A stretch of DNA of 38,246 nucleotides from a virus. A program made the position numbers and the translations under genes. The notes beneath the pieces are model-generated. The model did not search any database. It saw nothing but the letters and a program-made list of their open reading frames with translations, and was not told the DNA's origin. The DNA lies in the IMG/VR virus record IMGVR_UViG_3300030060_004054, positions 1 to 38,246 of that record; one strand, 5' to 3'. This document shows, piece after piece, positions 3,543-38,246 of this stretch (position 1 is the first letter of the stretch; each line of letters begins with the position of its first letter).

Positions 3543-3827
3543 ATGGCAAAAGAATTAAACGAAGACACAGGTTTTAAAGTTAGCATTAAAACATTAATTG
3601 GAATTGGTTTTGCAATGGCAACTGTAATTGGTATGTGGTTTGCTTTACAGGCAGATATAGAAGAGGCAAAACAACTACCAGAACCACCAGTACCAGATGT
3701 GACAAGAATGGAGTTTGATATGAAGGATAAAAATATACGTCTTACTATTGAGAATACTCAAGATGATGTAACAGAGATTAAGGAAGATCTTAGACGTATA
3801 GAGGACAAAATAGATGAACTAAAATGA
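3543..3827 (+). CDS. Membrane-anchored coiled-coil protein
   Basis: A 94-residue protein. A hydrophobic segment at about 16-36 (TLIGIGFAMATVIGMWFALQA) is followed by a Pro-rich linker (LPEPPVPDV) and a C-terminal coiled coil (IENTQDDVTEIKEDLRRIED). It is a second candidate for an inner-membrane spanin or a membrane-bound lysis accessory. The stop overlaps the next start by ATGA, suggesting coupling to the exported thioredoxin-like protein. Function is inferred from layout only. Confidence 0.6.
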   Translation: MAKELNEDTGFKVSIKTLIGIGFAMATVIGMWFALQADIEEAKQLPEPPVPDVTRMEFDMKDKNIRLTIENTQDDVTEIKEDLRRIEDKIDELK

Positions 3828-4792: not shown

Positions 4793-5182
4793 ATGCCGAA
4801 TTTAACAACAAATTTAACTTTAGCACAATCAGGGATAGCTCCAGATGCAGTTACTGTTTCTACAGGTACTGTAAATTTTATAGTTGAGTCACCAGGTGTT
4901 TCAAATGGTGGTGAAACTATGACTGGTGCAACTGACTATTTGCTAAGTCCTAGTAATGCAAAAGATCAATACATTTTTATAAAGAATGTAGGTGAGTCTA
5001 CAGACACTGCTATAAAATTGTACAAAGGTTCTGGTGGTGGTACTCACATAGGGTCACTATTACCTGGAGATTTTGTATTATGGAAGTGGATATCTGGCGC
5101 AGATCTTTATGCAAGAAATGCAACTGGTGCTGGTAATGCTAAAATAGAGTGGACGTTTTTTACATCTACTACTACTGTATAG
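4793..5182 (+). CDS. Small beta-rich structural protein, paralogue group B
   Basis: A 129-residue protein. The C-terminal 80 residues read YIFIKNVGESTDTAIKLY, then HIGSLLPGDFVLWKW, then a final strand IEWTFF. This matches, strand by strand, the protein at 10077 (YVYVKNNDTTNYLKLR, WGLIEAGKWGFFTIP, SIDYIIF) and more loosely the one at 4283. No signal peptide or membrane segment is present. A virion surface or tail role is inferred. The start is preceded by the TAA run. Confidence 0.6.
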   Translation: MPNLTTNLTLAQSGIAPDAVTVSTGTVNFIVESPGVSNGGETMTGATDYLLSPSNAKDQYIFIKNVGESTDTAIKLYKGSGGGTHIGSLLPGDFVLWKWISGADLYARNATGAGNAKIEWTFFTSTTTV

Positions 5183-8822: not shown

Positions 8823-9877
8823 AACAATTAATTTACATATTATTATTATTATCTTTTACGATAAATGCACAAGATGAAAGTAAGTTTAAAACAGAACTTA
8901 AAAAAACTTTCAAGTTTTCTACATTTTATGCTGCAGTAAACGGTGGTACTTCTATTTCAGATCAGAATACATATTCTATATTAGATGGACTTCAAACCGA
9001 TGTAGTAGAAACTCCATTTGATTATGCACTAACTCTAGGTGTAAGAAAGATACAAAGATTTGGATACGAGAACAAGGCTAACACATTCAAGGATGGTACA
9101 GAAACATCATACTCTGATGCCGCTACTATTGGACGAACTAGAGGATTTGAGTTTCTATTTGAAGCAGACTACAGAAGACAACAGGGTGACTCTTATGTAG
9201 ACCAACATCACTTCTTACGATACCTAGCAGATAGATGGGTTGTTAAGGTAGAGTATCTACAGGATGGCTTTGCTGATGTAGAGTACATGGAAGCATCACA
9301 ACGATATAGACAAAAGATAGGTAAGAGACTTTCACTTACTGCAGGGACAGCACAAAGGATCTCCGAGCCTTATGGTTTTGATCCATTAGAACAGTGGGTG
9401 TTATCCAACGGGAACATACACTACACAAACCTTGCTTTAGAAGAAGGGTATACAATTGACTTTGACCCAACAGGAATAAGCTACTTAGACCCTAGTGGGA
9501 CAGTCGTGGCTACAAGTACTGAAGTCTGGGAAGAGGTAGTGGTCCCACAGATGCTTGATCAGTATGTAAAGTCTAGCAAAGATGCATTACCTGTACAATG
9601 GTGTTATTCTATAGTGGTTGGTGCTGACTATTACTACTACACTAAAAAGATCTGGCTACACTCATGGGCCAACATACTTCCTTATCATCTTAATACAGGG
9701 GGAGAGTATTCATATCATAACTTTAATGGTGGTAATTGGATAGACTATTCCGGTGGTTTAATCTTTGGTTATAAGATCAATAGAAACCTAGGTATATTTA
9801 TTGAAGGTAAATATAACAAGTACTGGAATAGGGACTGGCATGATTTCAAGTTTGGAATAAATTACATCATACTTTAA
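8819..9877 (+). CDS. Putative outer-membrane beta-barrel protein
   Basis: A 352-residue protein. Residues 1-17 form a signal peptide (LIYILLLLSFTINAQ). The mature protein has many amphipathic strands with aromatic residues at the ends (TFYAAVNGG, YALTLGVRKIQRFGY, RGFEFLFEADYRRQ, FLRYLADRWVVKVEYL, GGLIFGYKINRNLGIFIEGKY). It ends in FKFGINYIIL, a C-terminal strand of the outer-membrane protein type. Insertion into the host outer membrane is inferred; possible roles are receptor masking or export of phage material. Its codon use contains more CGA, CCC and GTC than neighbours, a hint of separate origin. Confidence 0.65.
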   Translation: MKQLIYILLLLSFTINAQDESKFKTELKKTFKFSTFYAAVNGGTSISDQNTYSILDGLQTDVVETPFDYALTLGVRKIQRFGYENKANTFKDGTETSYSDAATIGRTRGFEFLFEADYRRQQGDSYVDQHHFLRYLADRWVVKVEYLQDGFADVEYMEASQRYRQKIGKRLSLTAGTAQRISEPYGFDPLEQWVLSNGNIHYTNLALEEGYTIDFDPTGISYLDPSGTVVATSTEVWEEVVVPQMLDQYVKSSKDALPVQWCYSIVVGADYYYYTKKIWLHSWANILPYHLNTGGEYSYHNFNGGNWIDYSGGLIFGYKINRNLGIFIEGKYNKYWNRDWHDFKFGINYIIL

Positions 9878-37113: not shown

Positions 37114-37419
37114 TTACTTCCAAGTATATGTTAACGCTGTGAATGGTAATACAATACCAAGCATTTTATCTTTCTTAGTAGGATATATAAATCCTAAAGA
37201 TATTGCAGGTACTCTTTCCATTCTGAATTTGCCTTTCTTTATTCTAGGCATGGTACTAAAACCAAGTAGTGCAACCCCAACTGCAAGTATATTTGCTATT
37301 ATAAGAAGCACAGCTGTTGCTATAAATCTTCTATCTGGTTGGAAAAATACTATATAGTCTAGTAATAATACGGTTATTGGTATAATAAATACCAATGAAA
37401 AATAAAATAATCTTTTCAT
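37114..37419 (-). CDS. 101-aa membrane protein
   Basis: Two TM helices: about 4-26 (LFYFSLVFIIPITVLLLDYIVFF, shown in part) and about 32-55 (FIATAVLLIIANILAVGVAL). A basic loop (RIKKGKFRMERV) and a third weak hydrophobic stretch follow. No signal peptide or known family. Stands directly upstream of a strong terminator. Unknown function. Confidence 0.6.
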   Translation of the reverse strand: MKRLFYFSLVFIIPITVLLLDYIVFFQPDRRFIATAVLLIIANILAVGVALLGFSTMPRIKKGKFRMERVPAISLGFIYPTKKDKMLGIVLPFTALTYTWK

Positions 37420-37448: not shown

Positions 37449-37526
37449 TTACATATGTGATGTACACATAATTATAACAAATATACATAGCAGTATACCT
37501 ATTATGGCTAAAATATCTTGTTTCAT
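37449..37526 (-). CDS. Membrane micropeptide, 25 aa
   Basis: ATG at 37526 opens KQDILAIIGILLCIFVIIMC, a single TM helix, ending in TSHM. It lies between the structured RNA region and the two-TM gene. Of the same type as the micropeptides at 32042, 32121 and 33927. Confidence 0.45.
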   Translation of the reverse strand: MKQDILAIIGILLCIFVIIMCTSHM

Positions 37527-37555
37527 AATTTATACAGTTTACTCTGTTAGGTTAC

Positions 37556-37697
37556 ACCAACTAACTCCACACTCCTGCTATACAGTATATGAGCTACTAT
37601 GGCTCTACTGTAGACTTACGGCATATTATAGTTGTAACTAATTTTACAGGTATTATCAATACAGACATTTGCTATCCTGTATCAATAGTTAGTTGGT
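37556..37697 (-). ncRNA. Candidate multibranch structured RNA
   Basis: ACCAACTAACT (37556-37566) and AGTTAGTTGGT (37687-37697) are a perfect 11-bp inverted repeat 120 bases apart. Inside are an extended hairpin, TACAGTA/TACTGTA (37581-37587 with 37606-37612) continued by GAGC/GCTC across a TAT bulge, and ATACAG/CTGTAT (37659-37664 with 37677-37682). This is a closed multibranch fold. GTTACA/TGTAAC (37551 with 37633) gives a possible extra long-range contact. I assign the minus strand because flanking genes are transcribed that way. Confidence 0.5.
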
Positions 37698-37705
37698 TTA
37701 AATTA

Positions 37706-37745
37706 AATAGAGGTAACTTATTTGCGAGCATAAGCTACCTCTATT
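37706..37745 (-). ncRNA. Strong 16-bp hairpin
   Basis: AATAGAGGTAACTTAT (37706-37721) pairs with ATAAGCTACCTCTATT (37730-37745) over 16 bp with a single wobble and an 8-base loop. On the minus strand TAATTT follows, a weak U-run, so it may be a poor terminator or part of a larger RNA with the neighbouring folds. Confidence 0.6.
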
Positions 37746-37767
37746 AGAGTAGGTTGATTAACATATT

Positions 37768-37876
37768 TATTATTCCAATAATATCCCTGTTAATCTGGGA
37801 TTTGTATAGCTGTCTCACTATACGGATGGACTTACATCTTTCACCAACGTTATTCTTATACAGTTCATTCTGTATA
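37768..37876 (-). ncRNA. Cluster of four further hairpins
   Basis: TATTATT/AATAATA (37768-37783), ATCCC/GGGAT (37783-37801), GTATAG/CTATAC (37804-37823) and TATACAG/CTGTATA (37857-37876) follow one another with short linkers. Alone each is modest; their succession in a gene-free stretch with the two stronger folds suggests one RNA of about 320 bases. Confidence 0.4.
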
Positions 37877-37924
37877 CTTTCATGGTTACTTTATTGAACG
37901 CCTACTTGAAGTCAAGTTTATTTA

Positions 37925-38146: not shown

Positions 38147-38246
38147 ATCATTTAATTTTAAGTAAGTTATTAATTCTTTGAGTTGCGGTTACTATGTCTC
38201 TTATCCTATAGAGAGAGAACATATAGACTATAAGTACACTATCAAC
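38147..38246. other. Right-edge non-coding stretch
   Basis: No gene start is visible besides that of 38146. CTATGTCTCT (38192-38201) and AGAGAGAACATATAG (38212-38226) pair imperfectly, giving a possible hairpin on either strand. The rest is AT-rich. The sequence ends here, so its upstream neighbour is unknown. Confidence 0.35.

Follow-up and report, generated by a model that had tools for sequence, protein, structure and literature searches.

Exchangeable structured RNA modules predicted in the non-coding regions of crAss-like phages

Among the structured RNAs described in phages, GOLLD and ROOL, of about 600 to over 800 nt, are represented by Rfam models and have a role that is not known; GOLLD carries a variable 5′ region, and both RNAs are often found near tRNA islands (PMC12286853). 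Racrs are small phage non-coding RNAs that mimic CRISPR repeats and act in trans on host immunity (PMC10651486), and an RNA of phage PhiTE mimics the ToxI antitoxin, which leads to escape from a host abortive-infection system (PMC3475682). At the level of transcription, the virion RNA polymerase of phage N4 uses hairpin promoters (PMC4496689). The element described here, called J, lies in a short non-coding stretch of a marine phage genome (IMG/VR record IMGVR_UViG_3300030060_004054, whose 38,246 nt were analyzed as a whole and are referred to as the window), and its nearest described phage RNAs are GOLLD and ROOL. As with them, J is a predicted structured phage RNA, and a tRNA-Arg gene is found near some copies of the modules presented below, but J would be a mobile module of about 100 to 150 nt with no Rfam match, whereas GOLLD and ROOL are much longer. 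The conserved J unit spans 102–143 nt, as compared to the many hundred nucleotides of GOLLD, whose members are often above 800. Neither the GOLLD nor the ROOL model gave a gathering-score match in the window or in 16 related loci, or any match in permissive searches around J, in agreement with a preliminary description of this DNA that saw no direct match to them, and the same searches (window plus 16 related loci, gathering and permissive thresholds) yielded no credible Rfam family for J.

The stretch had been described as 398 gene-free bases, and it measures exactly that (37527–37924, no ORF of at least 60 aa) between a 73-aa gene and a 25-aa ORF, both on the minus strand. The features of the region are listed below in the order of the minus strand, with L numbers designating the related viral loci.

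38176..38246, minus strand: P module (GTTCTCTCTCTATAGGATAAGAGACATAGTAACCGCAAC) and the 3′ part of its hypervariable arm, ending at the contig end
37925..38146, minus strand: upstream 73-aa gene, with a homologue in L003 (DNA 98% identical)
37857..37876, minus strand: hairpin UAUACAG-AAUGAA-CUGUAUA, resembling the start-like motif family (stem ACAG/CUGU, loop AAUGAA)
37753..37846, minus strand: structured stretch Q (z −3.0 jointly with the hairpin at 37857–37876)
37706..37745, minus strand: H16, a 16-pair hairpin directly upstream of J (z −7.2), with one G-U pair that is an A-C mismatch on the plus strand
37552..37701, minus strand: J, a predicted structured RNA module of about 150 nt (P1, P2, P3, P4 and a variable arm), from the comparative alignment
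37701-37699/37554-37552, minus strand: outer extension of P1 of J, three pairs
37697-37687/37566-37556, minus strand: closing stem P1 of J, 11 perfect pairs, ACCAACUAACU/AGUUAGUUGGU
37655..37686 (37686-37673/37667-37655), minus strand: stem P2 of J, loop GCAAA (pair 21-48: UA 4, UG 4, CG 1; pair 22-47: GU 6, AU 3)
37629..37640, minus strand: stem P3 of J, UAGU(UACA)ACUA, which is UAAC(UACA)GUUA in L046
37574..37621, minus strand: stem P4 of J (CC/GG) and variable arm, long in the window
37597..37668, minus strand: possible 23-codon mini-ORF within J (MSVLIIPVKLVTTIICRKSTVEP)
37528..37550, minus strand: start-like motif CTAACAGAGTAAACTGTATAAAT, directly after J and ahead of the next small ORF
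37449..37526, minus strand: 25-aa hydrophobic ORF downstream of the motif (DNA 98–99% identical in L002 and L003)
37114..37419, minus strand: downstream 101-aa gene (97–98% identity in L002/L003)

The stems reported previously were recovered: the perfect 11-bp closing stem around a branched interior (37556–37566/37687–37697), the 16-bp hairpin (37706–37721/37730–37745) and additional stems at 37857–37876 and within 37753–37846. The minus strand of the 398 bases folds at −99.4 kcal/mol, against −76.4 ± 5.1 in shuffled versions (z −4.47, reached by 0 of 100 shuffles), and the plus strand is nearly equal (z −3.96, 0 of 100). As both strands fold well, the energy alone settles neither the strand nor the boundaries of any RNA, and a comparison with homologues was needed. 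This comparison sustains the earlier proposal of a minus-strand structured non-coding RNA, through compensatory changes, a tetraloop swap and an asymmetry of wobble pairs, but not its size: the homologues split the stretch, formerly taken as one transcript of about 320 bases, into independent modules, with the branched part (about 100–150 nt) being mobile and lying beside separate hairpins. Judged by these homologues, what occupies the 398 bases is a row of modules and not one 320-base RNA. Among the records searched, Q is known from this one alone, with no counterpart in the relatives compared; its sole match in the collection was discarded as a chance match in coding DNA.

The evidence for the fold of J comes from nine distinct copies, whose alignment is gapless once the variable arm is trimmed to four letters. 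When P1 with its outer extension, P2, P3 and P4 are considered, standard pairs occupy 99.3% of the pair cells, whereas structures displaced by 1–3 columns are only 30–47% paired. Compensatory changes, the check set beforehand in the preliminary description, are present: five pairs are altered on both sides, a number equalled by 0 of 500 shuffles, and four remain without the outer extension (2 of 500 shuffles). The covariation score is 0.116, versus 0.079 ± 0.008 in the shuffles. Most of the pairs are invariant, and the double changes come mainly from two diverged copies, L046 and L030. The clearest case is P3 of L046, with two adjacent double changes (UAGU/ACUA to UAAC/GUUA), whilst in L030 one C-G pair of P1 has become U-A and the outer stem has been exchanged for another, largely pairing one. 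A rival P3 favoured energetically by RNAalifold (columns 57–61/68–72) was rejected, being broken in L046 and lower in score. The arm on P4 forms a long hairpin in some copies, the window's among them, but is replaced by an unrelated short hairpin in L003, L015 and L020, and by a bare cUUCGg tetraloop in L011 and L029. Energy z-scores of J alone failed to separate the strands, so that the strand was called from wobble pairs and the tetraloop: across all J copies, G-U cells outnumber A-C cells by 23 to 1, and this excess, together with the UUCG tetraloop, indicates the minus strand as the RNA strand of J. The alignment shows, at the level of comparative prediction, a J fold maintained by compensatory change with a single sense strand.

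Pattern scans of IMG/VR detected J homologues in 10 other contigs, which derive from crAss-like phages. A covariance model of J finds the window copy at 37546–37704 (135.6 bits, E 3e-25, the window itself being part of the model) and recovers only known copies, each scoring more than 120 bits apart from one shortened by a contig end (57.8 bits), and nothing in relatives of 110–122 kb; since the sequences in the model match by construction, the informative part of this search is the absence of J elsewhere. The J pattern was absent from 84,980 prokaryote genomes, and the P pattern was found in no bacterial or archaeal genome scanned. No match passed the default limit in blastn searches with J against INPHARED and PLSDB; a weak one in Acinetobacter phages (E 0.04) runs antisense within a gene and was taken as chance. 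Three further collection matches (L038, L056, L063) were rejected as chance pattern matches in unrelated, mostly coding sequence. A search of the open literature, which covers part of the published work, returned no paper on structured non-coding RNA in crAss-like phages.

Matches to the terminase of phage phi14:2 occur in 10 of 11 related records, down to E 3e-42, and six records (L005, L019, L040, L041, L042, L045) contain giant ORFs of 4,779–5,478 residues that weakly resemble the virion RNA polymerase of phi14:2. The 38-kb window record, which holds mainly replication genes, matches neither of these phi14:2 proteins, and its DNA polymerase has many phage matches, including phi14:2 at 35% identity. 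By these matches, the relatives are crAss-like phages. The 101-aa gene near J shows no PHROG match; it led to the close relatives L002 and L003.

The distribution of J among these phages does not follow that of the genes around it. In L003, most of the shared proteins are 97–99% identical to those of the window, yet its J is 86.7% identical and bears a different arm, and an extra cassette with a 62-aa gene comes after the branched element. In L002, the hairpin tail TTTAAT is followed by the motif CTAACAGAG with J cleanly missing from between them, and L014 offers an equally exact empty site between the same two features. The J copy of L027 shares 97.8% identity with that of the window over 185 nt; the gene neighbourhood of L027 is common to L005, L014 and L028, and the helicase and DnaB of L014 are just 24–30% identical to those of the window. 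The slots where J is found are also diverse: after P (L011, L029, L046), a few bases after the motif (L015, whereas in the window J precedes it), after H16 (window, L003, L020), after other hairpins (L027, L028, L031) and inside another stem (L030). Downstream of J there may be an ORF, the 62-aa gene, about 600 nt of mostly non-coding DNA (L011), a tRNA-Arg gene (L015) or the module K, and the lack of a constant downstream neighbour argues against J as the leader of one gene. These comparisons of genomic context show the passage of the predicted J element horizontally between crAss-like phage lineages and between non-coding positions.

J is also shown by the same comparisons to belong to a set of interchangeable, presumptively structured modules. 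P, a conserved element, was found in 22 stretches by IMG/VR pattern scans. Its arm, of 61–178 nt, differs in sequence among 21 phages, yet the two ends of each arm pair with one another better than with ends taken from other phages (0 of 5000 permutations; given the kinship between part of these phages, this figure is not a strict probability). K and W are found in two places, within the P arm and behind the motif, and M and Z can follow either the motif or P. K shows a compensatory change of its own, from G-C to U-A. Homologues of H16 are present in L002, L003, L007, L020 and L022. This hairpin does not have the G+C-rich stem followed by a T run of an intrinsic terminator, and lies outside the two terminator-like sites; it may be a 3′-end hairpin (end-of-cassette, terminator-like) or a processing one.

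The start-like motif, CTAACAGAGTAAACTGT in its general form, was detected in 26 viral stretches in the same kind of scans, nearly always where a gene or a structured cassette begins. It was rejected as a genome-wide promoter, with merely 0–3 copies per record. As with the N4 promoters, it is a small inverted repeat with few copies in each genome, in phages that have a giant ORF of the virion RNA polymerase type. The stem versions ACAG/CTGT, ACGG/CCGT and ATGG/CCAT were all seen. Unlike in N4, the inverted repeat is gone at 4 of 21 P loci, which weakens a universal hairpin-promoter reading and leaves the motif as a candidate promoter and a lead.

Several explanations could account for a fold that is both conserved and mobile. 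The one that we favour, with somewhat better than even confidence, is that J is a self-contained, exchangeable non-coding RNA of the early region, probably acting in trans and probably with a role linked to infection. The modules would be transcribed early in infection, either from the CTAACAG start-like motif or via read-through, and would be released as stable small RNAs that could act in trans as decoys, scaffolds or inhibitors of a host function. Their patchy, arms-race-like exchange would then parallel, with RNAs, the swapping of small accessory genes, and the trans function itself is a guess from this patchiness and from the context. Alternatively, J could be a cis-acting UTR fold that sets the stability, processing or translation of its own transcript, with H16 as a 3′-end hairpin, and would be exchanged as a spare part. 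J is indeed sense-oriented with the neighbouring genes, often just ahead of a start motif and a small gene, and other modules behave similarly, but it keeps no fixed neighbour or distance (as seen with the tRNA gene of L015 and the mostly non-coding DNA of L011) and is missing from L002 despite the same genes, as well as from most other relatives, which leaves the cis-acting fold as a possible but rather unlikely account. It is improbable that J represents a peripheral domain of one larger modular RNA starting at P, comparable to the variable 5′ part of GOLLD: although J directly follows P in three phages, and the P arm is hypervariable, structured and able to contain modules also found alone, a gene and hairpins separate J from P in the window and L003, and in L027 and L028 J follows a gene-end hairpin in a flank without P.

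The precise presence or absence of J between short common borders (TTTAAT | CTAACAG), and the ACCAC repeats that recur with 10-bp phasing ahead of P in relatives, would also be compatible with an element acting as DNA (a cruciform, part of an origin or a recombination/mobile unit) whose fold is a by-product. However, the wobble asymmetry and the tetraloop indicate a one-strand RNA, the borders of J show no constant target duplication, and its lack in near-complete relatives implies that it is not an essential origin, so a DNA element seems quite improbable; neither the origin nor the set of terminators contemplated in the preliminary description finds support for the branched part. Least credible is a mini-gene for a short hydrophobic peptide (MSVLIIPVKLVTTIIC...) behind AGGA, with the hairpin as its translational control. 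All copies share the ATG and the AGGA without change, and in none is the frame interrupted within the first 16 codons, but variable sites at codon positions 1/2/3 number 5/2/3, with no third-position excess, the C-terminus is unrelated and of different length between copies, and the double changes of L046 track pairing and not synonymy. The mini-ORF is probably non-coding.

If J is a trans-acting RNA, Racrs would provide a model for its function; J differs from them in its branched fold. ToxIN systems use short repeated pseudoknot RNAs; J, on the contrary, is a single-copy branched junction. A broader and unlikely scenario is that these crAss-like phages keep a locus of structured RNA cassettes, shuffled between phages and slots and served by dedicated start elements, whose products would act in trans against host defences; at the RNA level, such a locus would correspond to the gene islands known for anti-defence proteins. 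In phages, exchangeable accessory functions are familiar in the form of proteins, and exchangeable accessory RNAs are hardly known. If infected cells do produce these modules, several new RNA families would be found within a single short region in a widespread order of phages. With their well-defined limits, sites that naturally lack them and comparisons at hand, these families would allow a direct test of why structured RNAs are carried by phages.

Some other observations concern the same variable region. The P module (window 38176–38246, L003 3740–3870 and others), whose arm is closed by ATAGCTATAA/TTATAGTC and gives a strong signal of end pairing, is a candidate RNA family of its own. K (CGTGCCAARYAGAAKAGTACAAGG...GTACTMACGG) is a compact conserved fold present in L027 (from about 9560), L005, L014, L008 and L012, and W (L006, L007), M (L008, L012) and Z (L020, L025) each occupy two different slots. 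A tRNA-Arg (TCT) gene maps to the region in L008 (1886), L015 (2680), L022 (635) and L023 (5458). The ACCAC repeats, spaced by 10 bases (e.g. ACCACATTTTACCACTTAACACCACA), are found upstream of P in most relatives, such as L003 at about 3685–3715. They precede AT-rich DNA and could serve as a promoter, an origin or a site of phased protein binding. Finally, hairpins in L003 (about 4826–4870), L009 and L011 (about 9350–9400) have TAGTRAACCTTGGTG in common within unrelated outer stems, a possible recurrent RNA motif.
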